From Tabrizicola sp. (GTDB lineage Bacteria > Pseudomonadota > Alphaproteobacteria > Rhodobacterales > Rhodobacteraceae), in NCBI RefSeq assembly GCF_030373185.1, contig NZ_JAUCZH010000010.1, positions 1-54,806 on the forward strand: DNA of 54,806 nucleotides, given 5' to 3'. Below, piece by piece: positions 15,274 through 35,894 of this stretch (positions are counted from its first letter, which is position 1; each line of letters starts with the position of its first letter). Both the position numbers and the translations under genes were made by a program. The notes beneath the pieces are model-generated. The model saw nothing but the letters and a program-made list of their open reading frames with translations. It was not told the DNA's origin and did no database searches.

Positions 15274-15338
15274 TTGCGAACCTCCTTGCATTCATGCACC
15301 AGCCTAGTCGTGGCCCGTGCGAGCAGCAACTGGAATAT

Positions 15339-15348
15339 TAGTTGACTA
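15339..15348. promoter_or_regulatory. Putative GntR operator TAGTTGACTA
   Basis: TAGT-TG-ACTA is a short dyad of the GntR type (GT..AC core) in the divergent gap between the GntR gene and uxaC. It overlaps an AT-rich stretch (TATTAGTTGACTAGCATAAA) that could hold a promoter. Single site, inferred. Confidence 0.4.
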
Positions 15349-15409
15349 GCATAAAAAGAATCCCCAATGTGACCATCAATCAAAGCGTCTGCACCGGGGG
15401 AGGGTGAGA

Positions 15410-16816
15410 GTGGGCCTGCTTCATCCTGACCGTCTGTTTCCGGCCGATCCTGTGTCGCGTGACCTTGCGCGCGCGCTCTATGGCACGGTCGGCTCCCTGC
15501 CGATCATCAGCCCGCACGGCCACACCGACCCGGCCTGGTATGCGACGGATGCCGCCTTTCCTGATCCCGCCCAGCTTTTCGTGACGCCCGACCACTACGT
15601 CTTCCGCATGCTCTGTTCGCAAGGCATCCCGCTTCAGGCTTTGGGCGTCCCGCGTGCCGATGGCGGCCCGACCGAAACCGATGGCCGGAAGATCTGGCGC
15701 ATCTTCGCGCAGAACTATCACCTGTTTCGGGGTACCCCGTCCCGCATGTGGCTGGATCATGCGTTCGAGACGATCTTCGGTTTCGACCAGCGGCTGACCG
15801 CCGCCAACGCCGACGATTACTACAACCGCATCGCCGAAGCCCTGCAAACTCCTGCCTTCCGCCCCCGAGCCTTGTTCAAGCGGTTCAATATCGAGGTCAT
15901 CGCCACCACCGATTCCGCTTTGGACGACCTGTCGCATCACCACGCCATCCGCGCTTCGGGCTGGCGGGGCAGGGTGGTCCCGACCTATCGGCCCGATAGC
16001 GTCGTCGATCCCGATTTCCCGGGCTTTGCCGCCAACATCGCCCGGCTTGGCGATATTACCGGTGAAGACACCCACAGCTGGCCGGGCTACCTGAGCGCCC
16101 ATCGCCAGCGTCGGGGGTTCTTCAAATCCTTGGGTGCCACCGCCACCGACCACGGTCACGCCACGGCAAGGACGGAAGACCTGTCTTTGCAGGATGCTGC
16201 CGCCTTGTTTGCCCTTGTCCTGACCGGCAATGCCACGCCGGACGAAGCTGACGCCTTCCGCGGCCAGATGCTGACCGAAATGGCGCGGATGAGTCTGGAC
16301 GATGGCCTTGTCCTGCAATTGCACCCCGGTAGCCGTCGCAACCACAGTGCCGGCATCCTTCAGAAATTCGGCCGCGACAAGGGCTTCGACATCCCCGGCC
16401 GCACCGATTATGTCGCTGCCCTCCGCCCGCTTCTGAACGCGGTGGGGATGGAGCCGTCGCTTGCCATCATACTCTTCACGCTGGACGAAACCGCCTATTC
16501 CCGCGAACTGGCGCCCTTGGCGGGCGTCTATCCGGCGTTGAAGCTGGGGCCGCCCTGGTGGTTCCATGACAGCCCCGAAGGCATGCGGCGCTTTCGTGAG
16601 ATGGCGACCGAAACCGCGGGCTTTTACAACACCGTCGGCTTCAACGACGATACCCGCGCGTTCCTTTCCATCCCCGCGCGGCACGATATGGCCCGCCGGG
16701 TAGACTGCGCCTTTCTGGCCGATCTTGTGACAACCGGAAGGCTCGACCGCGAGGAGGCGTTCGAGCTTGCCCCCCAACTGGCCCATGGCCTTGCCAAGGC
16801 CGCCTACAGACTGTGA
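15410..16816 (+). CDS. uxaC: Uronate isomerase
   Basis: A 468-aa glucuronate/galacturonate isomerase of the amidohydrolase-like superfamily. The N-terminus [20 protein letters not shown] and metal-binding ISPHGHTDP are characteristic, as is the C-terminal [21 protein letters not shown]. It converts D-glucuronate to D-fructuronate and galacturonate to tagaturonate. GTG 15410 is chosen because GGGGGAGG lies six bases upstream and family proteins start at this point; GTG 15404 directly abuts the ribosome site. First gene of the uronate operon. Confidence 0.93.
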
Positions 16817-21551: not shown

Positions 21552-21629
21552 AATCCGTACGGCCCAGAAGTTTTCGGAGATTTCTGCAGGTTGCTTCCAA
21601 AGATATTGGCCCAGCCCGGAGGCCACGGC

Positions 21630-23039
21630 ATGATCCTCCGCCGCACCACCCCCGCCCCGAAAACCGGCATTGTCCACCTTGGCCTTGGCGCCTTTTTCCG
21701 TGCGCATGGCGCGGTCTATATCCAGGAGGCCGACGGGACCGGCGACTGGGGCATCCTCGGGGTGTCACTGCAACGCCCCGATGTCCGCAACGCGTTGCAA
21801 CCGCAAGACGGCCTTTACACCGCCCTGGAGCTTGGCCCGAACGGCCAGACCGTGCAAACCGTGACCAGCGTCACCGGCGTCCTCGTGGCCCCGGAAGACC
21901 CGCAGGCGGTGCTTGCCGCCATGTCCGACCCCGCGGTCAGGATCGTCACTCTTACCGTCACCGAAAAGGGCTATTGCTACGAACCCGCAACCGGCCTGCT
22001 GAACGCGGATCACCCCGATATCATCCATGATCTGGAAGTCCCGCTGCCCCGCTCGACCATCGGCTTTCTTGTCCGTGCCCTGGCCATCCGCCGCGCCGCA
22101 GGTCACCGCCCCTTCACCGTCCTTACCTGCGACAATCTTCCGGCCAACGGCCGGCTTGTCCGCGGCCTTGTGCTGGACCTTGCCGGGCGGATCGACCCGG
22201 CCTTGGCGGAATGGATCGCGGCCGAAGCCTGTTTCCCCTCAACCATGGTTGACCGGATCGTCCCGGCCACCACGCCCGACACCATCGCCACAGTCCAGCG
22301 CCTTACTGGCATGACCGACGCCGCGCCGGTCCAGCACGAACCCTTCCGGCAATGGGTGATCGAGGATGATTTCGTCGACAACCAGCGCCCCGACCTTGCA
22401 GCTGTTGGTGCGGAACTGGTCGAGGACGTCACCCCTTTTGAGCATATGAAGCTACGGATGCTGAACGGCACTCATTCCGCGCTGGCCTATCTGGGCTACC
22501 TTGCCGGGCATGAAACCATCGCAGATTGCATGGCCGACCCGGTCTTCGCCACCTTCATCCGCGCGCTTTGGGCTGATGAGATCATCCCAGCGCTGACCCC
22601 GCCGCCTGACGCTGATCTGAACATCTATGCCGACCGACTGTTCGACCGCTACAGCAACCCCGGTATCCGCCACCGCACCTGGCAGATCGCAATGGATGGC
22701 AGCCAGAAGCTGCCGCAGCGCATTCTTGGGACGCTGGCCGACAATCTGAAAGCGGGGAGGGAAAGCCCCGGCCTGATCCTTTCTGTTGCCGCCTGGGTGC
22801 GGTATGTCGGCGGCACCGATGAGTTGGGCCAACCCATCGACGTGCGTGACCCGCTCGCTGCCCGCCTTCGTGCCTTGCTGGACAGCAAGAGCACGCCAGA
22901 GGGCAAGGTCGCGGCACTGTTGTCCTTCCGCGAGATCTTCCCGGAAGCCTTGGCCGCAGCCCTCTTGGCTCATGTCACCACCACCTACAAATCCTTGTTG
23001 AAAAATGGCGCCCGCCGCACCTTGGAGAGCATGACATGA
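21630..23039 (+). CDS. uxuB: Fructuronate reductase (mannonate oxidoreductase, mannitol dehydrogenase family)
   Basis: A 469-aa long-chain polyol dehydrogenase. The N-terminal NAD motif is HLGLGAFFRAHGAVYIQ, and the catalytic Lys/His motif KLRMLNGTHSALAYLG lies in the C-terminal domain (about residue 275). It reduces fructuronate to mannonate, the substrate of the next gene product. ATG 21630 is set seven bases after GGAGG; the TTG at 21591 would add 13 residues with no support. A UxaB-like tagaturonate reductase is the alternative, but coupling to uxuA favours UxuB. Confidence 0.88.
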   Translation: MILRRTTPAPKTGIVHLGLGAFFRAHGAVYIQEADGTGDWGILGVSLQRPDVRNALQPQDGLYTALELGPNGQTVQTVTSVTGVLVAPEDPQAVLAAMSDPAVRIVTLTVTEKGYCYEPATGLLNADHPDIIHDLEVPLPRSTIGFLVRALAIRRAAGHRPFTVLTCDNLPANGRLVRGLVLDLAGRIDPALAEWIAAEACFPSTMVDRIVPATTPDTIATVQRLTGMTDAAPVQHEPFRQWVIEDDFVDNQRPDLAAVGAELVEDVTPFEHMKLRMLNGTHSALAYLGYLAGHETIADCMADPVFATFIRALWADEIIPALTPPPDADLNIYADRLFDRYSNPGIRHRTWQIAMDGSQKLPQRILGTLADNLKAGRESPGLILSVAAWVRYVGGTDELGQPIDVRDPLAARLRALLDSKSTPEGKVAALLSFREIFPEALAAALLAHVTTTYKSLLKNGARRTLESMT

Positions 23040-24226
23040 TCGAAAGCTGGCGTTGGTATGGCCCGTTCGACAAGATCACCCTGGCCGAAATTGCCCAGAC
23101 CGGGGCTACGGGTATCGTCACCGCCCTGCACGAAATCCCTTATGGCGAGGTCTGGCCCTGCGACCTGATCGCTGCCCGCAAGGCCGAGATTCAGGCGGCA
23201 GGCTTCCAATGGGTCGTGGTCGAAAGCCTGCCGATCCACGAACGCATCAAGCGCGGGGAAGGGGACTTGTCCCAGCTTTTCGCCAACTACCGGCAAAGCA
23301 TGGCCAATCTGGCTGCCAACGGTATCCGCACGATCTGCTACAACTTCATGCCGCTGATCGACTGGACCCGCACCGACCTTGCCGCACCTGTCGCCCGTGG
23401 CGGCACCTGCCTGCGCTTTTCTGCGCCGAAGATGGCGGCCTTCGAACTGCATATGCTTGGACGTCAGGCTGCCGAAGCCGACTACCCCGAAGCGGTTCGC
23501 AAGGACGCCGCCGTCTGGTTCCAGCAGTCTTCCGAGGCCGATCGTGAGACGCTTCTCCATTCAATCATGTCCGGCCTGCCCGGGGCCTATGACCGCTATG
23601 ACATCGCGGGACTGAAAACGGCGCTGCAAGGCTACGATGGCATCCGCCGCGACGACCTGCGCGCCAATTACCGCCGCTTTCTGGAGGAGATCATCCCAGC
23701 CGCTGAAGACCTTGGCATGCGGCTCTGCGTCCACCCCGACGACCCACCGCGCGACCTTCTGGGCCTGCCGCGCATCGTTTCGGACGCGGACGGGATTGCC
23801 TTTGCCTTGAACGCGGTATCCGCGCGGGCCAATGGCCTGACGCTCTGCGCCGGTTCGCTCGGCGCGAACCCTGCGAACGACGTCCCCGCAATCGCCCGCC
23901 GTTTTGCCGACCGAATCCACTTTGCCCACTTGCGCAATGTCCGCAAGGACTTCGACGGCAGCTTTGAAGAGGCCGCGCATCTGGAGGGTGACACTGACAT
24001 GGTCACGCTGATCGATGCGCTGCTTGCCGAAGAACGCCGCCGCCTGGCCGAGGGTCGCGCCGACGCGTCTTTCCCCTTTCGCCCCGACCATGGGCATGAA
24101 CTGCTGACGGATATCGGTCGCGGCACCCATCCCGGCTATCCATTGATCGGCCGTCTCCGCGGCCTTGCCGAATTGCGTGGCGTTGCGAGCGCTTTGTCAG
24201 CGCGTGCAAGTAGCGTGACGGACTGA
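23036..24226 (+). CDS. uxuA: Mannonate dehydratase
   Basis: A 396-aa xylose-isomerase-like TIM-barrel dehydratase. It starts MIESWRWYGPFDKI and includes TGIVTALHEIPYGEVW, the metal region CVHPDDPPRDLLGLPRIV, and HFAHLRNV. It dehydrates D-mannonate to 2-keto-3-deoxygluconate, which KdgK then phosphorylates. ATGA overlap with uxuB. Last gene of the operon; no clear intrinsic terminator was seen after it. Confidence 0.93.
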   Translation: MIESWRWYGPFDKITLAEIAQTGATGIVTALHEIPYGEVWPCDLIAARKAEIQAAGFQWVVVESLPIHERIKRGEGDLSQLFANYRQSMANLAANGIRTICYNFMPLIDWTRTDLAAPVARGGTCLRFSAPKMAAFELHMLGRQAAEADYPEAVRKDAAVWFQQSSEADRETLLHSIMSGLPGAYDRYDIAGLKTALQGYDGIRRDDLRANYRRFLEEIIPAAEDLGMRLCVHPDDPPRDLLGLPRIVSDADGIAFALNAVSARANGLTLCAGSLGANPANDVPAIARRFADRIHFAHLRNVRKDFDGSFEEAAHLEGDTDMVTLIDALLAEERRRLAEGRADASFPFRPDHGHELLTDIGRGTHPGYPLIGRLRGLAELRGVASALSARASSVTD

Positions 24227-24704
24227 TTGCCGATCCATTCCAACGTGATCCTTGACCGATTGCCGCGAGGTCTGGCCGAAAGATCCCTGGTCAGCCTGCA
24301 ACTGAAGCTGGTCAGGATCTGAGAGCGTCAGAAACCCAGTGTACTGACCCAACCCATGCAGCCCTCAGATCCGGTCAGGCGTCGAAACATCCGGCAATCG
24401 TTTTGCCCAGCAGATTTCGGGCCGGAGCCCAGTTTCGGAAGGCGCAGCCCGTCCGTCCGATGGGCCGAGAACGCGGGGCCACCAGGCCAGAATGCCGCTT
24501 TTTCCACACTTGTTCTGCCCGACTTCGGGCGCTTGCCGGATCGTGGATACCACTCGGGAAAAAAGGCGTCGAACAAACGGCCACCAGATTATCGGTTCGG
24601 CGGCCAACCATCCGAGGGTCACTTTCACACCGGCAGATATTTCCAAGAGCATTCTTCGGGATGCTTGATATGCTTCTGGCCAGCGGCACCAGTATTCAAG
24701 GCCA
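24227..24704. other. Intergenic stretch with no recognised gene
   Basis: About 480 bases between uxuA and the regulator gene. Short open frames exist on both strands but show no start context, domain or codon pattern that I would defend. It presumably holds the end of the uronate transcript and the promoter of the next gene, neither of which I can place exactly. Confidence 0.4.
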
Positions 24705-26249
24705 ATGGACAGCATTCGCTTCTCAGATTTTGTTCTGCAACGCCGGACCCGGCAGCTTAGCCGTGCAATGGAGATCGTTCCGATCGGGGCGCGGGCCTTT
24801 GATCTGTTGGACATACTGATCACCCATCGTGACCGGGTGGTCGGCCGGGACGAGATCATGGCCGCCGTCTGGCCCGGAGCGGTGGTGGGTGAGAACAACC
24901 TGAATGTGCAGGTGGCCAATCTGCGCAAAGTCCTGGGGGGTGATGCGATCCTGACGGTGCCGGGCCGGGGTCTTCGCTTTGGTCTGGAGGTCGGGCAAGC
25001 GGGGGCGCTGGACCTGCCGGACCGGCCATCGGTGGTCGTCTTGCCATTCACCGATCTTGGGGGCGATCCCGATCTGGCCTGGTTCGCTGATGGATTTGTG
25101 GAAGACATCACGACCGAGTTGTCGCGCTTTCGCGATCTCTTTGTGGTCGCCCGCAACTCGGCTTTCGTCTATCGGCATGGGCCGCGCGATCTGCGCGCCA
25201 TTTCGCGGGAACTGGGCGTTCGCTATGCCGTCGAGGGCAGCGTCCGTGCCACGACAGACCGCGTCCGGGTGACGGCGCAGTTGATCGACGCCACGACCGG
25301 CGGCCATGTCTGGGCTGAAAGGTTCGACCGCGAACTGACCGCGCATTTCGACACGCAGGCGCGGGTCGCGCGGGCGGTCGTGACCTGCCTTGCCCCGCAG
25401 ATCGACCGGGCCGAAGCCGAGCGCATCCGCATCACCCCGCCGGAAAACCTGACGGCGCGGGGATTGGCGCTAAGCGGCTGGTCGGCCATTTCGGCGGGCG
25501 ACATGGCCTATGACCGCAGCGCCCGCGACAAGGCCGATGACCTCGCACGGCAGGCGCTTGCGCTGGACCCGGCGTCAGGTCTGGCCTGGCGGGTTCTGGC
25601 GTGGGTGGCCTGGTGGCACGTCTATCATGCGACGACAGCGTCGGTGCCTGAAACCCTTGCCGAAGGGATCAATGCCGCAACCCGGGCGATCGCGGCGGAC
25701 CCGACGGATCATCACGCACGACGCATCCGCGCCTTGTTGCATTTCATGCAGCAGAATGCCGATGCCGGCCTGCCCGAACTGCGCCAGGCGCATGAGATGA
25801 ACCCCAATTGCGCCGTGACCCTGGCCTGGCTGGGGCTTTACGAGGGGTTTCATGGCGATGCCGACAGGGGCGTGGTCCTTGCCGAGGCCGCCCTGCGGCG
25901 CAGCCCGCGTGACCCTGCGCGCGGATCACTTCTGGCCGCACTGGGGTTCGCCCATTTTGCCGTGCGCAATTATGCCGCTGCGGCAGAAGCGGCGGATGCG
26001 GCGTTGGCCGAGGCGTCTGGCAGCGCAACACCTCTGATCCTTGCCGCGATTGCCTGGGTGGGAGCTGGCCGGGTCGACCGCGCCTCAACGGCCTTTGAAC
26101 GGGTCAAGGCCATTGCGCCAACACTGGTCGAGGCGCGGCTGGCCGGGCGCTGGCTGACCTCGAACGCGGATTACCTTGCCCGGGCGCACACATTCTTTCG
26201 CATCGCAGCCGGGCTCGCGCCACCCGAGGCCGCCGACGCCTTGCGCTAG
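24705..26249 (+). CDS. Winged-helix (OmpR-type) regulator with TolB-like and TPR domains
   Basis: A 514-aa protein. Residues about 1-95 form a Trans_reg_C winged helix (PIGARAFDLLDILITHRDRVVGRDEIMAAVWPG..ENNLNVQVANLRKVLGG). Residues about 110-230 resemble the TolB/FlgO-like domain of CadC- and adenylate-cyclase-like regulators (VVVLPFTDLGGDPDLAWFADGFVEDITTELSRF). The remainder is Ala-rich TPR helices. There is no receiver domain and no transmembrane helix, so it is a soluble one-component regulator with unknown input. Its target may be the adjacent NTF2/CrtA-like gene group (inference from position only). Confidence 0.8.
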   Translation: MDSIRFSDFVLQRRTRQLSRAMEIVPIGARAFDLLDILITHRDRVVGRDEIMAAVWPGAVVGENNLNVQVANLRKVLGGDAILTVPGRGLRFGLEVGQAGALDLPDRPSVVVLPFTDLGGDPDLAWFADGFVEDITTELSRFRDLFVVARNSAFVYRHGPRDLRAISRELGVRYAVEGSVRATTDRVRVTAQLIDATTGGHVWAERFDRELTAHFDTQARVARAVVTCLAPQIDRAEAERIRITPPENLTARGLALSGWSAISAGDMAYDRSARDKADDLARQALALDPASGLAWRVLAWVAWWHVYHATTASVPETLAEGINAATRAIAADPTDHHARRIRALLHFMQQNADAGLPELRQAHEMNPNCAVTLAWLGLYEGFHGDADRGVVLAEAALRRSPRDPARGSLLAALGFAHFAVRNYAAAAEAADAALAEASGSATPLILAAIAWVGAGRVDRASTAFERVKAIAPTLVEARLAGRWLTSNADYLARAHTFFRIAAGLAPPEAADALR

Positions 26250-26331
26250 GGGATGCCACGCCGATCAGGCACAAGGCCGAACGCGAAAATTGCCGCAGCA
26301 CTCAGGGAAGGAAGACGTCAGGTGCGACAGA

Positions 26332-26703
26332 TCACCCGGCTGGTCGCAGAAAGAACACTTTTGAGACGATCTGCCAGCGGCCCTCATGCCGCAACAGCGT
26401 CAGCGTGTCGTCGTAATGCATGCCAAGCCAGATGTCTTCAACCTGAACCGTCGCCACGTCTCCGACCACCGAGATCGCATTTATGACGTGCCATGGTGAC
26501 AGGTCCGGCTCCTTGACGGCCTCTGCGACTAAGGTGATGAATCCCTCACGGCTTTCCCACTCCAACCCGCCCTCGAAATGCCCGATGCTACAGGCTTTTT
26601 CGTGCAGGGCAGCACGGAGTTTTGCGGCATCGTTCTGACACATGCCTTCGACGTAGGTTCTGACGACCTCGGCAATCTCGGCATAGGTTTGCGCGTCCTG
26701 CAT
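26332..26703 (-). CDS. NTF2-like (lumazine-binding-type) protein
   Basis: A 123-aa protein of the NTF2 superfamily, of the putative lumazine-binding sort: an N-terminal helix pair (YAEIAEVVRTYVEGMCQNDAAKLRAALHE) then a curved sheet ending GRWQIVSKVFFLRP. The start follows GGGAGGCGCAAG. Proteins of this fold serve as small enzymes or ligand carriers. It is transcribed divergently from the GYD gene. Function unknown. Confidence 0.75.
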   Translation of the reverse strand: MQDAQTYAEIAEVVRTYVEGMCQNDAAKLRAALHEKACSIGHFEGGLEWESREGFITLVAEAVKEPDLSPWHVINAISVVGDVATVQVEDIWLGMHYDDTLTLLRHEGRWQIVSKVFFLRPAG

Positions 26704-26933
26704 CTTGCGCCTCCCCGGCGGCCTTTGCCCGTCCAGCGGCCCGGGGTCCGGAGGATGGCCCGCTTAGCGTGACATCCGCACCCTTGGCAAACAAGCGTTT
26801 CCACGCAAAGTCACCCGCCGCTTTAGAACTTTTTAGCCGTGCTGATAGCCGGAGACCGGCGGGAGGCGCATGGTTTTGCACAGGCAGTGGCGAAGAATGA
26901 CCCCTGCCATCAACGCAATCGGGAGGATACCAC

Positions 26934-27266
26934 ATGGCGTTTTATCTTTATCAGCTCAGCTATTCGAAAGAGGCGATCAAGGCGATGGTAGCCAGCCCCT
27001 CTGACCGCGAGGCGGCGGCCCGCAAGTTGATCGAGGCGCTTGGCGGCAAGCTGCATCATCTGTTCTTTGCCTTTGGCGAATATGATGTGATCTGTCTGAT
27101 CGAAGGGCCGGACGACAAGATGATGATGGCGGGTGCTGCGGCGGTTGCCTCGGCGGGAACCATTTCCCGCTCTTCGACCGTCAAGCTGATGACAGCCGCC
27201 GATGCGATGGCCGCAATGACCATGGCGGGAAAGGTGACCGGCGCCTATCAGCCGCCGCAGGGCTGA
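26934..27266 (+). CDS. GYD-domain protein
   Basis: A 110-aa GYD-domain protein with the conserved FGEYDVICLIEGPDDKMMM core and a ferredoxin-like fold expected to dimerise. GGGAGGATACCAC precedes the start. GYD proteins occur widely without a settled function. Here it is the first gene of a tight plus-strand group ending with a SnoaL-like gene at 29644. Confidence 0.85.
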   Translation: MAFYLYQLSYSKEAIKAMVASPSDREAAARKLIEALGGKLHHLFFAFGEYDVICLIEGPDDKMMMAGAAAVASAGTISRSSTVKLMTAADAMAAMTMAGKVTGAYQPPQG

Positions 27267-27268
27267 AC

Positions 27269-28042
27269 GTGTCCGCAGATATTGCGGCGGGGGCACACCC
27301 CGCAGCCGACCTGGGTGACCACGACTGGATCACCCTTCACCGCCTGCGCTTTCCCGACGCGATATCTGCGCATGACAGGACGTTTCCGCCGGTGCCGGGC
27401 GCTCCGGTCTGGCGGTTCTGTCCGCAGCACACGCCGGGAGAGGACGGGCTTGTCACCCTGTCCTCGGACATCTGGTGCGGCATGGGGATCTGGGACAGCC
27501 GTGCCGAAGCCGAGGCCATGCTTGCCGATCCCGGTGCCGCGATGCCCTGGCTGCCCGAGGCCGTCGCGGCCTGGCACTGCCTTGCGGTCCCGTTCTCGCA
27601 TCGCGGTCAGGTCAACTGGCGCGGACATGTCGAGGACGGCACCGCCGTGCGCCCCGTCCCTGCCGATCCCGGTGGCCCGCTGGTGGTTATCACCTCGGCC
27701 GGGTTCCTGTCTCGCGAGGCCCATATGCTGCCCCGCATCCGGCTGTTCGTCGAAGGCGTGACCGAGGTCATGGCGTGGTATGGCGCCTTGCCCTCGAACC
27801 TGCGCAACGGTGCGTTCAACGGCCCTGACGGGCGCCAGGGCTTTACCTGTTCGCTCTGGCGCTCGGACGAGGCGATGCGCGAAGCCGCCTACAGCCACGG
27901 TCGCCACCGCGCCCGGATGGAGGAGAACCGCGCCGGGCTGATGTTCGACTATTCGTCCTTCACCCGCCTGCGCGCGCTGCGCAGTCATGGGGATTGGGAC
28001 GGCGACCCCTTTGCCGAATTGCAGGAAGGAACCATGACATGA
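27269..28042 (+). CDS. CrtA-like (spheroidene-monooxygenase-like) protein
   Basis: A 257-aa protein whose C-terminal half resembles CrtA: VITSAGFLSREAHMLPR.., a GRQGFTCSLWRSDEAMREAAY block parallel to CrtA's TFSIWPD..MEEFA, then FTRLRALRSHGDWDGDPFAEL. CrtA is a heme-dependent carotenoid oxygenase with a dimeric alpha/beta barrel. No carotenoid gene lies in the window, so another substrate is likely. Residues 1-25 form an extra leader. GTG start two bases after the GYD stop. The similarity is from memory and moderate. Confidence 0.6.
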   Translation: MSADIAAGAHPAADLGDHDWITLHRLRFPDAISAHDRTFPPVPGAPVWRFCPQHTPGEDGLVTLSSDIWCGMGIWDSRAEAEAMLADPGAAMPWLPEAVAAWHCLAVPFSHRGQVNWRGHVEDGTAVRPVPADPGGPLVVITSAGFLSREAHMLPRIRLFVEGVTEVMAWYGALPSNLRNGAFNGPDGRQGFTCSLWRSDEAMREAAYSHGRHRARMEENRAGLMFDYSSFTRLRALRSHGDWDGDPFAELQEGTMT

Positions 28043-28422
28043 CCACCGACATCGCTGCGATCGCCGCAGACTACACCGCCGCCTGGAACAGCGGCTCGGC
28101 CGAGGCCGTGGCGGCGTTCTATGCCCCGGGTGGCACAATCGTCATAAATCGCGGCACCCCGTGGGAGGGGCGCGCCGGCGTCGCCGCGATGGCTGCGGGG
28201 TTTTTCGCCGATGTGCCTGACCTGAACCTGACCTGCGACGGGCTTCGCATCGCAGGCGACCACGTTGCCTATCTGTGGACCTTCACCGGCCATCATGCGC
28301 AGAGCCGCAATCCGCTGCGGATCACCGGGTGGGAGGAGTGGGATCTTGACGCGGCCGGCAAGGTCATCGCCTCACGCGGCTGGTTCGATGGGCAGGATTA
28401 CGCCCGGCAGGTGGCCGGGTGA
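28039..28422 (+). CDS. SnoaL/NTF2-like protein
   Basis: A 127-aa NTF2-fold protein (IAADYTAAWNSGSAEAVAAFYAPGGTIVINRGTPWEGRAG..), ending WDLDAAGKVIASRGWFDGQDY. Such proteins act as polyketide cyclases, isomerases or limonene-epoxide-hydrolase-like enzymes. ATGA overlap with the CrtA-like gene and GTGA overlap with the methyltransferase show strict translational coupling. Substrate unknown. Confidence 0.82.
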   Translation: MTTDIAAIAADYTAAWNSGSAEAVAAFYAPGGTIVINRGTPWEGRAGVAAMAAGFFADVPDLNLTCDGLRIAGDHVAYLWTFTGHHAQSRNPLRITGWEEWDLDAAGKVIASRGWFDGQDYARQVAG

Positions 28423-29210
28423 GCGCTGGAACAGCACAGGTGAATGGCCGCCTTTGGGGGGCAAGCGCGCGCGACTGGGCCGAGGTCCAGGAAGGCCAGT
28501 TCGCCGCCGCCTTTCACGCGGTGCTGGCCCATGCCGGGGTGCGACACGGTACCCGGCATCTGGAGGCGGGCTGCGGTGCGGGCATGGCGGCGGCCCTGTC
28601 CGCCACTTTGGGCGCGCAAGTCGCGGGCGTGGATGCGGCCGAAGGGATGCTGGCGATTGCCCGTGAACGCACGCCCGGAGGTGATTTCCGGCAAGGCGAT
28701 CTGGAGGCGCTGCCCTTCGCCGATGACACCTTCGACCTTGTCACCGGCTTCAACGCCTTCCAGTTCGCAAGCGACCCCATCAAGGCCTTGCGCGAGGCGG
28801 GGCGGGTCACACGTCCGGGCGGGATGGTCGTCGTCACCACCTGGGGCGATCCCGCAGGCATGGACGCCGCTACCCTGGTCGCGGCCATGAAGCCGATGTT
28901 GCCCCCCGCGCCGCCGGGTACCCCGGGCCCCTTCGCCCTGTCGGACGAGACGGCCCTGCGCGCCTTCGCCATCGCGGGCGGGCTGACCCCTGTTGCAGTC
29001 TTCGACGTGGACTCGCCCTGGTTCTACCGCGACGAGGCAACCGCCCTGCGCGGCTTCGGGTCCGCCGGCGTTGCAACCCTGGCGCGCGAGCGCGTCGGCG
29101 AGCCTGCATTCAACACGGCCATCAGCGCGGCCTTGGCCCCGTTCCGGCAAGCCGACGGCAGCTTTCGCCTTGGCGCCCGGGCGCGGTGTCTGGTCACCAC
29201 AATCGACTGA
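28419..29210 (+). CDS. Class I SAM-dependent methyltransferase
   Basis: A 263-aa methyltransferase of the UbiE/Methyltransf_11 sort: SAM motif I HLEAGCGAGMAAAL, acidic loop VDAAEGMLAIARE, and motif II/III region DLEALPFADDTFDLVTGFNAFQFASDP followed by REAGRVTRPGGMVVV. GTG start overlapping the previous stop. Probably methylates a small molecule handled by the coupled SnoaL- and CrtA-like proteins. Confidence 0.87.
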   Translation: MSAGTAQVNGRLWGASARDWAEVQEGQFAAAFHAVLAHAGVRHGTRHLEAGCGAGMAAALSATLGAQVAGVDAAEGMLAIARERTPGGDFRQGDLEALPFADDTFDLVTGFNAFQFASDPIKALREAGRVTRPGGMVVVTTWGDPAGMDAATLVAAMKPMLPPAPPGTPGPFALSDETALRAFAIAGGLTPVAVFDVDSPWFYRDEATALRGFGSAGVATLARERVGEPAFNTAISAALAPFRQADGSFRLGARARCLVTTID

Positions 29211-29221
29211 AAGGAAGCCAG

Positions 29222-29644
29222 ATGAACGATATCGAAAGGACCGTCCGCCAATTCCACGAAAGCTGGGATCTGCGCGACCCGGAGCGCGGCGTCGCGGTCA
29301 TTGCCGAAGATTGCCGGTTCGAGGATGTCGCACGCGGCGAAGCGCAAACCGGGCCGGACGGCTACCGGATGGATTATCACCGCTGGCGCGCGGCTTTTCC
29401 CGATGGGGAGGTCAAGGTCGTCAACGTCATCACCGGCGCGGATGGTTGGGCCGTGGTGGAATTCCTGAACAGAGGCACCCAGACCGGCCCGCTGCACTCC
29501 AGCCTTGGCGTCTTTCCACCCTCGGGCCGCAAGATGGAGGTGCGCTATTGTTCGGTCATGCGGGTGCAGGACGGCAAGGTGGTCGAAGGACGCGATTATT
29601 ACGACAGCGCCAGCATCGCCCGCCAACAGGGGCTCGTGGCATGA
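29222..29644 (+). CDS. SnoaL-like (ester cyclase-type) protein
   Basis: A 140-aa NTF2-superfamily protein: VRQFHESWDLRDPERGVAVIAEDCRFEDVARGE.., HSSLGVFPPSGRKMEVRYCSVMRVQDGKVVEGRDYYD. This is the SnoaL-like polyketide-cyclase pattern. AAGGA precedes the start. It is the second SnoaL-like gene of the group, 11 bases after the methyltransferase. Function unknown. Confidence 0.82.
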   Translation: MNDIERTVRQFHESWDLRDPERGVAVIAEDCRFEDVARGEAQTGPDGYRMDYHRWRAAFPDGEVKVVNVITGADGWAVVEFLNRGTQTGPLHSSLGVFPPSGRKMEVRYCSVMRVQDGKVVEGRDYYDSASIARQQGLVA

Positions 29645-29684
29645 GAACCGCCACGGATTTGCTCCACTGCAACCGGAGACACCG

Positions 29685-29942
29685 ATGACCCCGCCCGCCT
29701 ACTTCAACGCCACGCCCGCCCTTGACCTGGCGATTCCGTCAAGGCGGGCGCCATCGCGATCGACCTGTTCGCCGAGGCTGGCCGCTATCCGCCCAAGATG
29801 GGGCAGCCGGACCAAAATAGAGATGCAGACACTTTACCAGAGTGTCGGCTTCCGCTTTACCGACCCCTATCCCGAAAGCGGCACGGTCAGGACCGATCCG
29901 CGCGCCGCGGTGAACCTGGTTTTCATGCAACTCGACCTTTGA
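29685..29942 (+). pseudogene. Degenerate gene with GNAT-like tail
   Basis: The frame opens after GGAGACACCG with MTPPAYFNATPALDLAIP, becomes Arg/Ser-rich (a +1 frame reads KAGAIAIDLFAEAGRYPPKM over the same bases), then ends with a clear GNAT acetyltransferase C-terminus, MQTLYQSVGFRFTDPYPESG..FMQLDL. It looks like pieces of two genes joined by deletion. The matching N-terminal GNAT piece may be the one at 31864-32183. No function is expected. Confidence 0.55.
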
Positions 29943-29964
29943 TCCTGCAATTATGGAGACACGC

Positions 29965-30840
29965 ATGTCTGCCAATCCGGAACCCGCCCTCCGCATTTAT
30001 ACCGACGCCATTTCCGACAGCTCCCGCTGGGACGCTTTCTTGCCTCGCGCGGGGGATATCGTCGTCTCCACTCCGCCAAAGTCAGGCACCACCTGGACAC
30101 AAGGCATCCTTGCCATGCTGATCGCAGGCGACCCGGAGGTGGACGCCCAGACCTCGATGAAATCGCCTTGGATCGACATCAATATTCGCGATCTCGGCGA
30201 GGTCATGGCGAGGCTAGAGGCGCAGGAGCACAGGCGGCAGGTCAAGACGCACACGCCTTTCGATGGCATCCCCTTCTGGCAGCAGATTCGATATGTCACG
30301 GTCTATCGTCACCCGATCGACGTGCATTTTTCTTATCGTAGGCATCTGGCCAACATGGCCCGCGACGTGGGGCAGGCCCCCCTGTCCGACAACCCGTCTG
30401 ACAGCTTTCGGGAATTCCTGGCAGAGGACGTCAATCACGAGGGCCTTGGATCGATCCTGGACCACTACCGCTGCACACTCGCGCGCGAGCCGCGTGAGAA
30501 TTTGATCCGACTGCACTATGCCGACATGCTGTGCGATCTTCCGGGTGCTGTGGCGTCGTTGGCGGCGCATGTCGGGATCGCCCTTCCGGCCGAGGTCATG
30601 GCGGCCGTCACCGAGGCCGCGACATTTGCCAGCATGAAAGCCAATGCGGCACGTTTCACGCCGTCAGCCGGACAAGGATTCTGGAAGGCAGATGCGGGGT
30701 TCTTTGACAGCGCAACATCGCGAAAGTGGGAGGGTTTGCTGACCGATGATGACCTTGCGGCCTATGATGCCAAGATGAGCGCAGGACTGACGGTTGAAGA
30801 ACGCGGCTGGCTGGAATGGGGGGATGCAGGCCGTGGGTGA
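29965..30840 (+). CDS. Sulfotransferase (cytosolic SULT-like)
   Basis: A 291-aa PAPS-dependent sulfotransferase. The 5'-phosphosulfate loop is STPPKSGTTWTQGIL, the catalytic His lies in QVKTHTPFDGIP, and the 3'-phosphate motif is VYRHPIDVHFSYRRH; a C-terminal FWKADAGFFDSATSRKWEG closes the PAPS site. ATG 29965 is taken because GGAG lies six bases upstream; the alternative 29953 start contains that ribosome site. It probably sulfates a hydroxylated or amine-bearing small molecule. Physically close to the methyltransferase/CrtA-like group. Confidence 0.9.
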   Translation: MSANPEPALRIYTDAISDSSRWDAFLPRAGDIVVSTPPKSGTTWTQGILAMLIAGDPEVDAQTSMKSPWIDINIRDLGEVMARLEAQEHRRQVKTHTPFDGIPFWQQIRYVTVYRHPIDVHFSYRRHLANMARDVGQAPLSDNPSDSFREFLAEDVNHEGLGSILDHYRCTLAREPRENLIRLHYADMLCDLPGAVASLAAHVGIALPAEVMAAVTEAATFASMKANAARFTPSAGQGFWKADAGFFDSATSRKWEGLLTDDDLAAYDAKMSAGLTVEERGWLEWGDAGRG

Positions 30841-31076
30841 GGATCGAATGGCCTTCACCAAAGTTGGCAGTCGAGATCGCAACACATCGCGGTGCCGCGG
30901 GGCGGTCAATCTGCGCGACCCAAACGAAAACCGGGTAGATTTCTTTCGCGCACTTACCCAAGCGCCGCAGCAAAGGGAAGGGTGGGGAGCGCCGGAGTTG
31001 AGCAATCAACTTGTTTCGGGCGTCGACACCTGTAGGGAAATGATCCCTGCCCAAGACACAGGATTGGAAAGCCGCC

Positions 31077-31817
31077 TTGCCTGATCTTACCGACCCCTTC
31101 GCCCACCACCCCGAATTGCGCGGCCGGATAGCCGATCCTGAAAGCTCTTTCTTTCGGACATTCAACATCGAGGCCGAGCTCGCGCGCGATCCGGCGCTGC
31201 GGGACTGGGTGCATGGCGACACACGGCGCGAGGCGATCCGGGCCGAGGCATTGGCCGGCCATGCAGGAGACCTGTGGATCTTCGGCTATGGTTCGCTGAT
31301 GTGGGATCCTGCATTGCGCTTTGTCGAGGTGCGGCGCGCGCATGTTTCAGGCCATGCCCGCCGCCTGATCCTGGTCGACACAAGGGGGGGGCGCGGCACG
31401 AAAGAAGCGCCGGGCCTGTTCGCGACGCTTGATGCGGGTGAGGGTTGCGAGGGGCTGGCCTTTCGGATCGCGGCGGCGGACGTCGAGGTCGAGACCGAAA
31501 TCCTGTTCCGGCGCGAGATGCTCGCACCCGGTTATCTTGCGCGATTCGTCCCGGCCCGGATCGGCGACACGGATATCCGTGTGCTGACCTTTCTTGCGGA
31601 TCACGACGTACCCGACGTCCGCCCTGATCTGACCCATGAGGAACAGGTTCGCTTCCTTGCCCACGGGGCGGGCGACCTTGGCACAAGCCGGGAATATCTC
31701 GCCAATATCGTCGAGCACTTCACCCATCTGGGGATCACTGACGATCATTGCGCCGAGCTTTTGCGCGCGGTCGACGCCTACCTTGCCGTCAGGGCAGGCG
31801 CGGTGGTGCCTTCGTGA
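31077..31817 (+). CDS. ChaC-like gamma-glutamylcyclotransferase
   Basis: A 246-aa ChaC/GGCT-type protein: substrate loop LWIFGYGSLMWDPAL, HARRLILVDTRGGRGT, GLFATLDAG and the catalytic Glu region ETEILFRREM. It degrades glutathione or gamma-glutamyl peptides to 5-oxoproline. The TTG start has no good ribosome site and is provisional; the conserved core begins about 60 residues in. Codon use matches neighbours. Confidence 0.82.
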   Translation: MPDLTDPFAHHPELRGRIADPESSFFRTFNIEAELARDPALRDWVHGDTRREAIRAEALAGHAGDLWIFGYGSLMWDPALRFVEVRRAHVSGHARRLILVDTRGGRGTKEAPGLFATLDAGEGCEGLAFRIAAADVEVETEILFRREMLAPGYLARFVPARIGDTDIRVLTFLADHDVPDVRPDLTHEEQVRFLAHGAGDLGTSREYLANIVEHFTHLGITDDHCAELLRAVDAYLAVRAGAVVPS

Positions 31818-31863
31818 CCGCCCGCATCCTCCACGAGACTGCTTTCCAAAAAGAAGAGCCAGA

Positions 31864-32183
31864 ATGGCCATAACCGTTGCCGTCAGTGCCGAACCAGCTG
31901 ACCGCGGGCAGATTGACCCGCTGTTGCGGGAGTTCCACGCCATCGGCCCGCAAAAGCTGGCGGCACGCGGGGGCCGGCATTCGACGTCGATGATGCCATC
32001 GCGGACTTCGGGGGCCATACGGGCGATTACATTCCACCTGACGGGCGCAACTGCCTGGCGCAGGACAAGGGCGCGGGCCTTTGGCAAATGGTAGATCAGA
32101 CTGCCCCAGCGCCTCGGAAAGGCTCCGCCGTTGGCATAGTGGTCCGCCCTGACTTGAGCCCAAGCGCGGCTTTGTCCGGCTGA
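31864..32183 (+). pseudogene. Frameshifted GNAT acetyltransferase N-terminal fragment
   Basis: The first frame reads MAITVAVSAEPADRGQIDPL..LAARGG. Near a G-run at 31969-31973 the coding moves by one base, and the next frame continues PAFDVDDAIADFGG..YIPPDGRNCLAQDKGAGLWQMV, the usual GNAT beta-strand pair before the acetyl-CoA site. The acetyl-CoA loop itself is missing and the frame ends LSPSAALSG. It appears to be the front half of an acetyltransferase whose back half resembles the tail at 29685-29942. Confidence 0.55.
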
Positions 32184-32267
32184 AATCCCTTCAATGATCG
32201 CAGGTTCGCCATATTTTTGCCGTTCTGGAAACGCTGGAGTAGATCGAACAACGAGCAGGGGTGTAAG

Positions 32268-33290
32268 GTGTCGTCGATAAGCGCCGGGGGAAAAGTGGTT
32301 CAGCTAGAGGTCGAGGGCCGGGAGAGGCCGGGTCATGGCGGGATCCGCCGGGTGACCTTGATCGTGCCAGTCTATAACGAACAGGACAGCATCACACCCT
32401 TTCTGGAAAAGCTGGGGGGTGTCCTGGACGACATCCATGCGCTGGCCTTGGTCGACATCCTGTTCGTGAATGACGGCAGCCGGGATGCGACCGAACGGCT
32501 GATCCTTGCGGCCGCTGCGGACCGCGCCGATATCTCTTTGATCAATCTGTCGCGCAACTTCGGCAAGGAAGCGGCGCTTTTTGCCGGGCTGAATCATGCG
32601 AGCGGTGATGCCGTCATCCCGCTGGACGTTGATCTTCAAGACCCGCCCGAGGTGATCGCCGAAATGATCCGGCGCTGGATCGCGGGGGCAAAGGTCGTCA
32701 ACGCCCGCCGGGCGCGCCGCGATGGTGACAGCCGTTTCAAGGCGATGTCGGCGCGGGCATTCTACAGGGTCTTCAATGCGATGGCCGATCAGCCGATCCC
32801 GCAGGACGTCGGCGACTTTCGTCTGCTTGATCGCACGGTGGTGGACGCTGTCTGTCGGCTTGGCGAAAGGTCGCGCTTCAACAAGTCACTCTTTTCATGG
32901 GTGGGCTTCGAGGCCGAGGAAATCACCTTTGACCGCCCCGCCCGGGCAGCCGGGGAGACCAGCTGGTCATACTGGAAGCTGTGGAAGCTGGCGCTTGACG
33001 GCATCTTTGCCGCCTCGACCATGCCGCTGCGGATATGGACATACGTTGGCATCCTGATGGCGATGATTTCGCTGGTCTACTCTGCCTATCTTCTTGCAAC
33101 GACGCTGATTTTCGGGGTGGACGTGCCGGGCTACGCCTCGACCGTGATCCTGATCCTTGTGTTCGGGGGCTTGAACATGTTCGCGCTGGGCATCATTGGC
33201 GAATATGTCGGGCGCATCTATACCGAGGTGCGCCAGCGCCCGCTTTACATCGTGCGATCCCACCATCCTGCCCCGAAAGCCGAAGACTGA
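32268..33290 (+). CDS. Family 2 glycosyltransferase (GtrB/DPM1-like)
   Basis: A 340-aa polyprenyl-phosphate sugar transferase: VTLIVPVYNEQDSI, LFVNDGSRDAT, the metal motif DVDLQDPPEV, and GDFRLLDRTVV in the catalytic domain, then two C-terminal membrane helices (about 265-325). GtrB-like enzymes load a sugar onto undecaprenyl phosphate. GTG 32268 is preferred, with AGGGG six bases upstream. First gene of a three-gene operon with a methyltransferase and a GtrA-containing membrane protein. Confidence 0.88.
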   Translation: MSSISAGGKVVQLEVEGRERPGHGGIRRVTLIVPVYNEQDSITPFLEKLGGVLDDIHALALVDILFVNDGSRDATERLILAAAADRADISLINLSRNFGKEAALFAGLNHASGDAVIPLDVDLQDPPEVIAEMIRRWIAGAKVVNARRARRDGDSRFKAMSARAFYRVFNAMADQPIPQDVGDFRLLDRTVVDAVCRLGERSRFNKSLFSWVGFEAEEITFDRPARAAGETSWSYWKLWKLALDGIFAASTMPLRIWTYVGILMAMISLVYSAYLLATTLIFGVDVPGYASTVILILVFGGLNMFALGIIGEYVGRIYTEVRQRPLYIVRSHHPAPKAED

Positions 33291-33291
33291 C

Positions 33292-34020
33292 ATGGACCGC
33301 ACCGTTTACGACCGGATGAACGAGCTTGAGGCGACACATTGGTGGTTTGTCGCGCGCCGCAAGGTCATTGCCACCTTCGTCGCACAAGAGCTGAAAGCGC
33401 GACCTCATCCCCGAATTCTGGAAGCGGGTTGCGGCAGCGGGGGGAACCTGACGATGCTGGCCCGGTTCGGGCAGGTTGATGCCTTTGAATATGACGGCGT
33501 GGCGCGCGAACATGCCATGTCCAAATCAGGGCTGGATATCCGTTTTGGCGCGCTGCCGGATGATTTGCCGTTTGATGACCGGCGCTATGATCTGATCGGC
33601 CTTTTCGATGTGTTGGAACATGTCGAAGCGGACAGCGCTTCTTTGGCAGCGTTGGCTGACCGACTTGAGGTCGGTGGCAAGATCCTTGTCACGGTCCCGG
33701 CCTTTCCGTTCCTGTGGTCAAAGCATGATGAGCGCCACCACCACTTTCGCCGCTACACCCGTGCCAGCCTGACCGAGGCTGCCCGTCAGGCCGGGTTGAA
33801 AGTGAGCTATTGCAGCTATTTCAACACGTTCCTCTTCCCGCTGGCCGTGACCGCGCGGGCGGTGAAGCGCCTGACAGGGCGCGATACCCCGGATGATAGG
33901 ATGCCTCCCGGCTGGTTGAACGGGGTTCTGGTCCGCATCTTCGGGATTGAAAGCCGGGTGCTTAAGGCGGTTCGGTTTCCGGTTGGCCTGTCGCTGGCTG
34001 CGGTTCTTGAAAGGGCCTGA
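33292..34020 (+). CDS. Class I SAM-dependent methyltransferase
   Basis: A 242-aa methyltransferase: motif I RILEAGCGSGGNLTML, then FDVLEHVEADSASLAAL and KILVTVPAFPFLWSKHDERHHHFRRYTR. This last sequence is common in methyltransferases of surface-polysaccharide and lipid-linked sugar loci. It starts one base after the GT2 stop, so cotranscription is certain. It likely methylates the transferred sugar or its carrier. Confidence 0.87.
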   Translation: MDRTVYDRMNELEATHWWFVARRKVIATFVAQELKARPHPRILEAGCGSGGNLTMLARFGQVDAFEYDGVAREHAMSKSGLDIRFGALPDDLPFDDRRYDLIGLFDVLEHVEADSASLAALADRLEVGGKILVTVPAFPFLWSKHDERHHHFRRYTRASLTEAARQAGLKVSYCSYFNTFLFPLAVTARAVKRLTGRDTPDDRMPPGWLNGVLVRIFGIESRVLKAVRFPVGLSLAAVLERA

Positions 34021-34028
34021 CCATCGGT

Positions 34029-35894
34029 ATGGTTGCGCAGTTTACGAGGTTTGTCGGCGTCGGGGGGCTGGCAACGGTCGTTCATGTCCTGTGCGCGCTT
34101 GTTCTGCGTCATTTGCTGGCTATTTCAGATCAGCAGGCCAATCTTGCGGGTTTTTCCGCTGCCGTGCTGGTATCTTATGTTGGACACGCGCGTTTTACCT
34201 TTGGGGTAGAGATGCGGTCTGGTCCGCAATTCCTAAGGTTTGTTTTCTTGTCGCTGTTTGGTCTTGCAACCAGCAGTGGCACAGTCTGGGTCGTCTCATC
34301 GCATCTTGGGTTCAGCTTCGCTACTGCAATGGCAGCAGTTGCCGTCCTTGTGCCGGGCATGACCTTCCTTGTGCTGCGGTTCTGGGTCTTTGACGGTCGG
34401 ACGCCGACCATCGGGCTTTTCCCTTCTGGACTGGTACTGCCACTGTTGCTTGCGGTGTCGGTTCTGGCGCTGTTCTGGGGGCGTATGCTGAACCACGATA
34501 CTGCGTGGTATCTGATCGCCACGCGTGACTGGCTGGGTGGAGCCACGCTTTACGTCGACGTGATGGAGGTCAATCCGCCGCTGAACTTCTATCTGACTGT
34601 TCCCGCGCTGTTGTTTGCTGATCTGCTTGGCGTTTCTGATACCAACGGGCAATACATTGCGCTGAGCCTGCTCATCTTTCTCAGCCTGTGGTGGTGCAGC
34701 GCGATCATCGGTTCAGATCGCCAACTCTCGCCCGCGTGGGCGGCACTGATGCTGGTCGGGATCGCCGCGGCCTTCGTTGTTCCGGCGCTGAACAACATGG
34801 CGCAGCGCGAGCAGCTGCTTGTCATTCTGGCAATGCCTTGGGCGCTGCGACAGATCGGCTCTGCGCCGGGCAGCCGGGGCCAGGACGTTGCCAGTGCTGC
34901 CTTTGCGGCGGTCGGGGTCTGCCTGAAGCCGCATTTCGTGGTGTTTCCAATTGTCGTGACGGTGTTTCATTGCGTGCGGCTGCGGTCTTTGTGGCCGGTT
35001 GTTTCCGCCGCGAACCTGACCTTTCTTGGGCTTGGGCTGGCCTATGTCGGCTATGTGGCTGTTGTGCATCCGCTCTATCTGACCGAAATCCTGGGCATCG
35101 CGCGCGATGTCTATGGGGCATATGGCTCCGAGGTTGGGCCGCTTCTGGCGCAGCTCCAGTTCGAGGCGCTGCTGATGCTGGTGCCGGTGCTTGTTGCCCT
35201 TGGCGCGCGGGGCCAGAACCGCGAGGCGGGGGTGTTTCTGGTGCTGTCTGGCGCCGGGTTGGCCAGCTACCTGATGCAAGGCACGGGCTTTGGCTATCAT
35301 GCAATCCCGTTCCGGACCTTCGCCATGATCGGTTGCGTCCTTCTGATGATCAAGGCATCGCGGTCGGGGATGACTGTTGCGGCACTCGCGGTTGCGGTGG
35401 CTCTTGCCGGACTTGTTGCCGGGTCGGTCCGGCGCGGCCTTTACAGCAACGGCGCCGTATCGGAGATCTCGCGCATTGCCAGCGGGTTGGGGCAGGTGGA
35501 TGGCGTGATCGTGCTGTCCAGCCACGTCTATGCCGGGCCGCCGGTTGCGCTTGCGCTCGATGCGGACTGGGCCAGCCGATACCCGGCGAACTGGTTGGTG
35601 CCTGGGGCGATCAACCGCTTGGCAAGGACCGATTGCGCCAGGGAAGCGGCAGTCTGCGCAAGGCTTGCGGCCATCGCCGCGCGTAACCGGGGTGACAACA
35701 TCGACGATATCCTGTCGCACCAACCCGACCTGCTGATCATTGACCGGCAGTCGGGCTATTTCGATGCAAATCCCTTCGACTGGCAGGCGTTCATGGCCGA
35801 AGATCAAGACTGGTCGCAGGTCGTGGCTGCCTACCGACTAACAGCCACGACCGACCGTTTTCTTTATTTCCAGCGCCTTGCGGTCTTGCCCTGA
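34029..35894 (+). CDS. GtrA domain fused to a GT-C-like membrane glycosyltransferase
   Basis: A 621-aa polytopic protein. Residues about 1-120 form a GtrA domain (FVGVGGLATVVHVLCALVLR.., SYVGHARFTFG, FWVFDG), usually a stand-alone flippase-like protein. Residues 130-620 carry about ten further hydrophobic segments and a GT-C/ArnT-like luminal motif (HDTAWYLIATRDWLGGATLYVDV..NPPLNFYL, with an acidic residue near the start of the loop). Together with the GT2 gene this gives a full GtrA-GtrB-Gtr set in two polypeptides. It should translocate a lipid-linked sugar and transfer it to an envelope acceptor. Confidence 0.78.
   Translation: MVAQFTRFVGVGGLATVVHVLCALVLRHLLAISDQQANLAGFSAAVLVSYVGHARFTFGVEMRSGPQFLRFVFLSLFGLATSSGTVWVVSSHLGFSFATAMAAVAVLVPGMTFLVLRFWVFDGRTPTIGLFPSGLVLPLLLAVSVLALFWGRMLNHDTAWYLIATRDWLGGATLYVDVMEVNPPLNFYLTVPALLFADLLGVSDTNGQYIALSLLIFLSLWWCSAIIGSDRQLSPAWAALMLVGIAAAFVVPALNNMAQREQLLVILAMPWALRQIGSAPGSRGQDVASAAFAAVGVCLKPHFVVFPIVVTVFHCVRLRSLWPVVSAANLTFLGLGLAYVGYVAVVHPLYLTEILGIARDVYGAYGSEVGPLLAQLQFEALLMLVPVLVALGARGQNREAGVFLVLSGAGLASYLMQGTGFGYHAIPFRTFAMIGCVLLMIKASRSGMTVAALAVAVALAGLVAGSVRRGLYSNGAVSEISRIASGLGQVDGVIVLSSHVYAGPPVALALDADWASRYPANWLVPGAINRLARTDCAREAAVCARLAAIAARNRGDNIDDILSHQPDLLIIDRQSGYFDANPFDWQAFMAEDQDWSQVVAAYRLTATTDRFLYFQRLAVLP

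Follow-up and report, generated by a model that had tools for sequence, protein, structure and literature searches.

What does a compact array of genes for small-molecule-modifying enzymes do in a Tabrizicola sp., a relative of the purple bacteria, and what controls it? The array lies on the 54,806-nucleotide contig NZ_JAUCZH010000010.1 of assembly GCF_030373185.1, referred to here as the window, to which all coordinates apply unless a locus is named. We regard the chances as even that the array is a copy of a regulator-operator-cargo unit, the cargo of which modifies or detoxifies a compound that comes from outside or derives from stress. The gene families are already known; the unit of regulator, repeat and cargo appears to be undescribed within the literature searched. 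The searches found no paper on this gene set, with most subscription journals outside their coverage, in keeping with an earlier note on this DNA, made from the sequence alone, that had named the cluster as its first candidate for an undescribed system. The one paper matching 'GYD domain' concerns Burkholderia thailandensis. The array comprises the following features:

24705-26249, + strand: regulator with an OmpR/PhoB-type winged helix (Trans_reg_C) and tetratricopeptide repeats (TPR), probably soluble and one-component (Pfam, orthologues, hydropathy)
26332-26703, - strand: NTF2-like protein, divergent, between regulator and presumed operator (Pfam Lumazine_bd_2 PF12893, E 1e-28)
26822-26836, + strand: presumed operator, direct repeat TTTAG-N5-TTTAG (TTTAGAACTTTTTAG) (locus comparison, shuffles)
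26844-26849, + strand: -10-like hexamer GATAGC, 7 bp past the 3' repeat, putative promoter element (invariant G across sites)
26934-27266, + strand: GYD-domain protein (Pfam GYD PF08734, E 6e-21)
27269-28042, + strand: CrtA-like predicted haem protein, 257 residues, predicted proximal ligand H213 (NCBIfam match below cut-off, fold)
28039-28422, + strand: SnoaL-like protein 1 (Pfam SnoaL_2, E 3e-16)
28419-29210, + strand: class I S-adenosylmethionine-dependent methyltransferase (Pfam Methyltransf_11, E 8e-24)
29222-29644, + strand: SnoaL-like protein 2 (Pfam SnoaL PF07366, E 1e-23)
29685-29792, + strand: scar of a deleted cupin gene, two ends only (blastn to locus L037)
29808-29942, + strand: scar, C-terminal end of an acetyltransferase-like gene (identity to a gene of locus L036)
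29953-30840, + strand: sulfotransferase (Pfam Sulfotransfer_1 PF00685, E 4e-33)
31077-31817, + strand: ChaC-like gamma-glutamylcyclotransferase, right end of the array (Pfam)

Gene order and conservation of the array

A profile scan of a genome-contig collection with an alignment of 22 CrtA-like sequences yielded 30 loci. L-numbers denote the loci and G-numbers the genomes compared; L003, L039 and G119, L004, L043 and G024, L037, L147 and G433, and L005 and L053 are the same genome or have identical proteins. In 9 of the 30 loci the CrtA-like gene sits inside the same cluster (two each from Pseudotabrizicola and Roseibacterium, one each from Alterinioella, Jannaschia, Marivita and Sedimentitalea, and one from a further Rhodobacteraceae), so that the co-occurrence check proposed in the earlier note found the genes together in 10 genomes, the window included. 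The other 21 loci, several of them with short flanks, matched none of the 10 further window genes that were searched for. The array is bordered on the left by a mannitol-dehydrogenase-family gene and UxuA, and on the right by glycosyltransferase, methyltransferase and GtrA-like genes (Pfam); UxuA (23036) and the glycosyltransferase (32217) served as internal controls and were matched in none of the nine related loci.

Orthologues of the regulator, 79-97% identical, head all nine. Taking these loci and the window as 10 CrtA-type arrays, the regulator (only residues 67-514 recovered in L042) and the repeat were present in all 10, followed by GYD (9), ChaC (8, the L057 copy split over two frames), SnoaL-1 (7) and the sulfotransferase (6). 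A full-length M19 dipeptidase match stands after ChaC in 6 of the 10 arrays, the window not among them. The window-type methyltransferase and SnoaL-2 each occur in three arrays, a second methyltransferase type in two, and the divergent NTF2-like gene lies between regulator and repeat in three, namely the window, L036 and L042 (split over two reading frames in the last). The arrays of L037 and L041 additionally carry two cupins and a GNAT gene, and L037 has an MFS transporter where GYD would stand. Of 32 genomes in the genus, only that of the window has the CrtA-like gene (E <= 1e-20), and in the family 6 of 198 genomes have it at >=43% identity; this distribution marks it as an accessory gene, one that probably moves horizontally.

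These comparisons bore out the earlier note's compact, conserved set of small-molecule-modifying genes. All the genes it named are open at the positions it gave (ORF, open reading frame, check), and its labels (NTF2-like/SnoaL, GYD, methyltransferase, sulfotransferase) agree with the Pfam matches. The spacings of 2-11 bases or overlaps that it reported within 26934-29644 can be read off the sequence: 2 bases between the GYD stop (27266) and the CrtA-like GTG (27269), overlaps of 4 bases between the CrtA-like stop (28042) and the SnoaL-1 ATG (28039) and between the SnoaL-1 stop (28422) and the methyltransferase GTG (28419), and 11 bases between the methyltransferase stop (29210) and the SnoaL-2 ATG (29222). 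Its boundaries, 26332-30840, were too narrow, as the regulator, the operator and the ChaC gene belong to the array too; these three and the scars at 29685-29942 were missing from it. Nor does its single small tailoring pathway describe the locus, since the cargo varies by genome and the window copy is partly decayed.

Divergence from L036 (Pseudotabrizicola sediminis) is uneven along the array: over 24705-27266 the regulator, NTF2-like and GYD proteins are 94-98% identical, the other shared cargo 71-87%. In a Pseudotabrizicola metagenome-assembled genome (MAG; L042 3497-5937), the CrtA-like gene is the last of the array and is followed by ApbE-family and P-type ATPase genes. When nine proteins were run against PADLOC defence models, the sole match was that of methyltransferase residues 34-157 to mad2, as expected of a generic methyltransferase domain.

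The direct repeat, sister units and decay

Pfam placed Trans_reg_C at residues 26-92 of the regulator (E 3e-12) and also matched TPR families, and the highest 19-residue hydropathy mean was 1.42. Across loci, the stretch past the regulator stop codon holds a common element, mostly TTTA[GT]A[AT]C[GT]TTTTAG, that is, TTTAG twice with 10-bp spacing. The window repeat reads toward GYD. With one mismatch allowed, the window has one match versus 0.01 in shuffles, and this site is the only one in the 3.6-Mb genome. We counted 20 sites in 17 loci, and all 20 regulator orthologues or fragments (57-100% identity) have a site on the same strand, whereas none of the four regulator paralogues (32-34%) in those loci has one within 1.5 kb. 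Sixteen sites begin 12-46 bases past the regulator stop and one (L146) overlaps it; the other three, with a divergent NTF2-like gene in between, are 573-591 bases away. The 3' repeat is followed by 7-8 bases and a -10-like hexamer, and the G at +27 is invariant (20 of 20 sites). In L036 (3643-6620), L043 (4271-7162) and L101 (1368-5917), two or three paralogous regulators with a winged helix-turn-helix (wHTH) and TPR stand in tandem.

As the motif had been derived from most of the 17 counted loci, fairer tests are provided by a protein search and a stringent-repeat search of 394 family genomes. The protein search, which scored up to three top candidates in each genome, recovered 12 regulator orthologues at >=64% in 11 genomes; 11 of them have a repeat site, and the twelfth (G568) has one with two mismatches about 23 bases past its stop. 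The stringent repeat gave 12 matches, 9 of which, sorted by eye, lie behind a regulator orthologue, and the orthologues of G501 and G503 were first reached through the repeat alone.

Regulator and repeat also precede different cargo in sister units. Five of these (L096, L098, L099, the second unit of L041, and L146) hold the window-type methyltransferase and then a small gene without a family; a membrane-protein-like gene comes next in all of them except L146, which has the small gene only. The L041 stretch with these two genes is 14793-16627, and the L098 copy of the membrane-protein-like gene had no Pfam match. What precedes the methyltransferase is a cupin in L098, a PF17784-type sulfotransferase in L099 and a small protein in L096. 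L097 combines a small protein and a PF17784 sulfotransferase with a partial membrane-protein-like gene, L071 has a cupin and the sulfotransferase up to the contig end, and L163 has a lone SnoaL-1-like gene behind regulator and repeat. Since this methyltransferase core recurs in sister units, the window methyltransferase may have come from that second kind of unit. L040 and L096 each have a further repeat, preceded by a regulator remnant (the last ~55 residues), which looks like the outcome of a fusion of two units and the decay of one regulator. The varied cargo and these fused-looking loci lead us to a tentative conjecture, that the regulator with an operator fixed just past its stop may form a plug-in platform, where recombination at the conserved end of the regulator would bring new cargo under a ready-made, signal-controlled promoter. 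Small detoxification or tailoring pathways might then, again speculatively, be assembled and swapped as integrons swap cassettes, but via a one-component activator.

The window copy is partly decayed between SnoaL-2 and the sulfotransferase. In blastn alignments with L037, 29211-29737 corresponds to 12409-12943 and 29743-29792 to 13167-13216, and L037 has an intact cupin gene there. The segment 29808-29942 is 75% identical to residues 71-114 encoded by L036 12506-12850, the final third of a gene resembling acetyltransferases, for which the GNAT label was assigned by eye, the reference gene having no Pfam match. Other loci hold remnants of cupin (L036, L057), GNAT (L040), M19 (L043) and CrtA-like (L149) genes. 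Such gain and loss of cargo, together with GYD orthologues that stand beside other genes in other genomes, would suit a loose stress regulon, in which the regulator drives unrelated small protective genes that share a promoter and form no pathway. We find this rather improbable, as the identified cargo has a narrow range (SnoaL/NTF2, GYD, methyltransferase, sulfotransferase, cupin, GNAT, CrtA-like, ChaC, M19, MFS) and its order is kept in several genomes. Two GYD orthologues (L173, L174; 75-76%) adjoin an ammonium transporter, so labeled by eye, and GYD may have a separate role. L182 has GYD, NTF2-like and MFS genes together, a cargo-like set by itself, with no regulator within 1.5 kb.

The CrtA-like protein

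The CrtA-like protein had no Pfam match up to E 0.1, and its sole NCBIfam match was CrtA (NF045923). A comparison by hhalign gave 99% probability over 220 columns with CrtA, which raises the idea of a second spheroidene monooxygenase and of a cluster that takes part in carotenoid synthesis. This is very improbable: the NCBIfam match scores 32.9 bits versus a cut-off of 300, the true CrtA of the same genome (L002, G000:C1:331596-332192) scores 381.6 bits and adjoins bchI, and in a tree that left out L001, L004, L008, L027, L043, L063 and L064, CrtA formed a clade separate from the CrtA-like proteins with 100/100 support. The position of the true CrtA next to bchI makes a photosynthesis gene cluster in the host probable; the window array is not in a crt/bch cluster, the neighbors scanned over 21591-35891 being other genes.

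The AlphaFold2 model and its fold matches predict fused ferredoxin-like domains of the CrtA/aldoxime-dehydratase type, with a proximal histidine in the C-terminal domain. That residue, H213, was present in 26 of 26 CrtA-like, 6 of 6 distant and 16 of 16 CrtA-side rows; these counts left out L004 and L043, for each of which the stop and start search gave a piece of just 4 residues, and L063, which its contig end cuts, and L064 fell outside the groups. It is in register with His299 of the haem protein OxdA, the role of which is treated in an excerpt of PMC4835899, and CrtA holds a 5-coordinated haem according to an excerpt of PMC10604819. The label "heme oxygenase-like" in the earlier note was thus inexact, the protein being a CrtA relative. 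The unrelated fold without cofactor that the note had envisaged is disfavored by the model, in which the fold is of the CrtA/aldoxime-dehydratase type, the haem-ligand histidine is conserved and a haem is predicted. The host genome has no match to PF13816 (aldoxime dehydratase).

Beside the CrtA-like gene, L046 carries a different NTF2-like family (DUF4440). An Amidohydro_2 gene lies downstream of CrtA-like genes in Gemmatimonadetes and Flavobacteriaceae MAGs (L046 11060-11998, L048 2779-3525).

Proposed function and comparison with known systems

In the explanation that we favor, the first gene encodes the regulator, a soluble one-component protein with winged helix and TPR that would bind the presumed operator near the end of that gene. 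The operator's direct repeat would occupy the -35 region, with the -10-like hexamer 7-8 bp downstream, and the cargo would be transcribed as one operon. Because of the promoter geometry, we infer that the regulator most likely activates transcription, as SARP activators do, although it might repress. The cargo pool could be read as oxidise, rearrange, conjugate, process glutathione and export (MFS). Oxidation would most likely fall to a haem-dependent CrtA-like enzyme, and rearrangement or hydrolysis to the NTF2-fold proteins; conjugation may be carried out by the methyl-, sulfo- or, in other genomes, acetyltransferase. ChaC and M19-type enzymes degrade glutathione and its dipeptide, and ChaC, with the M19 dipeptidase in relatives, may process a glutathione part. 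The substrate would be an outside or stress-derived molecule not built by this locus, which is modified and detoxified, and the units would move between genomes, exchange cargo and lose genes. An outside compound is favored over a fixed product since the cargo is variable and without a scaffold gene; as the earlier note had remarked, no scaffold synthase was seen among the Pfam-scanned array genes (not every neighbor was scanned).

The cargo might instead decorate an endogenous scaffold made elsewhere in the genome, such as a carotenoid, quinone, polyketide or fatty-acid product, to give a methylated or sulfated signal or antibiotic, with the regulator as pathway-specific activator. SARP-like control and CrtA kinship keep this in contention: the repeat geometry resembles that of antibiotic pathway activators as far as the SARP excerpt cited below describes it, the CrtA homology could indicate a polyene-like substrate, and the best Pfam match of SnoaL-2 is the SnoaL polyketide cyclase family. 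The lack of a scaffold gene among the genes scanned argues against it, and cargo that varies between genomes, down to the lone SnoaL-1-like gene of L163, fits a single fixed product poorly. We consider it possible, if clearly the less likely of the two.

Gene order, conservation, repeat distribution, the predicted fold with its conserved histidine and the scars are observed; DNA binding, haem, catalysis, substrate and detoxification are deduced from them. Several observations weigh against modification or detoxification by a regulated unit. Taken by itself, the weak G568 site does not exceed chance in its locus (31 of 200 shuffles), 3 of the 12 stringent repeat matches (G197, G471, G595) are away from any regulator orthologue, and a looser repeat pattern (68 of 394 genomes) occurs no more often than a reversed control and proves nothing alone. 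GYD is not bound to the unit, 5 of 8 orthologues at >=75% (189 genomes) being located elsewhere, and in all 21 loci with CrtA-like relatives at 61% or less, several of them short-flanked, the neighborhood holds no array gene of the window. ChaC and M19 could be ordinary neighbors. Foldseek placed aldoxime dehydratase below an anthrone-oxidase-like protein, TM-scores not exceeding about 0.5, and comparing profiles with aldoxime dehydratase gave no significant match.

The regulator-operator pair is directly testable, for a regulator class for which we found no function, and the CrtA-like clade, so far uncharacterised, takes a place among likely haem proteins. The locus illustrates the ways in which modifying enzymes (SnoaL, GYD, cupin, sulfotransferase, methyltransferase) are grouped into small sets and exchanged. 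If the array does serve detoxification, it would be a bacterial analogue, in one exchangeable locus, of the oxidise-conjugate-degrade handling of foreign compounds.

Among known systems, the regulator resembles SARPs of the AfsR type in joining an N-terminal OmpR-type DNA-binding domain and TPR in one protein that adjoins small-molecule genes. The BTAD transcriptional-activator domain is defining for SARPs, but none was among the regulator's Pfam matches up to E 0.1, which were to TPR families instead. SARP promoters have direct repeats 11 or 22 bp apart with the 3' repeat 8 bp from the -10, according to an excerpt of PMC10936776. The window repeats are likewise about one helical turn apart, the 3' one about 8 bp from the putative -10, but their period is 10 bp, not 11, with 7-8 bp to the -10-like hexamer at 26844-26849. 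The window unit also differs in being alphaproteobacterial, with no scaffold genes seen and with its repeat just past the regulator's own stop codon.

With CrtA, the CrtA-like protein shares homology over 220 columns, the same histidine and the W-x15-H spacing; it differs in its score under the family cut-off, separate clade, position outside the photosynthesis cluster, and H111 where CrtA mostly has Ala. It is more remote from the haem aldoxime dehydratase OxdA (PF13816), with ~10% identity, no PF13816 match and a nonsignificant profile comparison.

Among 385 genomes of the class, the best regulator matches beyond its own genome were 37-40% identical, so close orthologues were seen only within the family. 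Distant wHTH-TPR (CadC-family) regulators, rhizobial and other, differ in cargo and in divergent gene orientation, and five of their regions (L102-L106) hold no TTTAG repeat of the window form. They nevertheless have the same domain layout at 36-38% identity, and in all four annotated regions opened (Shinella, Sinorhizobium, Azospirillum, Azoarcus; out of 319 matched records, a fifth region being without annotation) they stand beside small-molecule enzyme or efflux genes, namely SDR plus cupin, carboxymuconolactone decarboxylase or HlyD/MFS genes.

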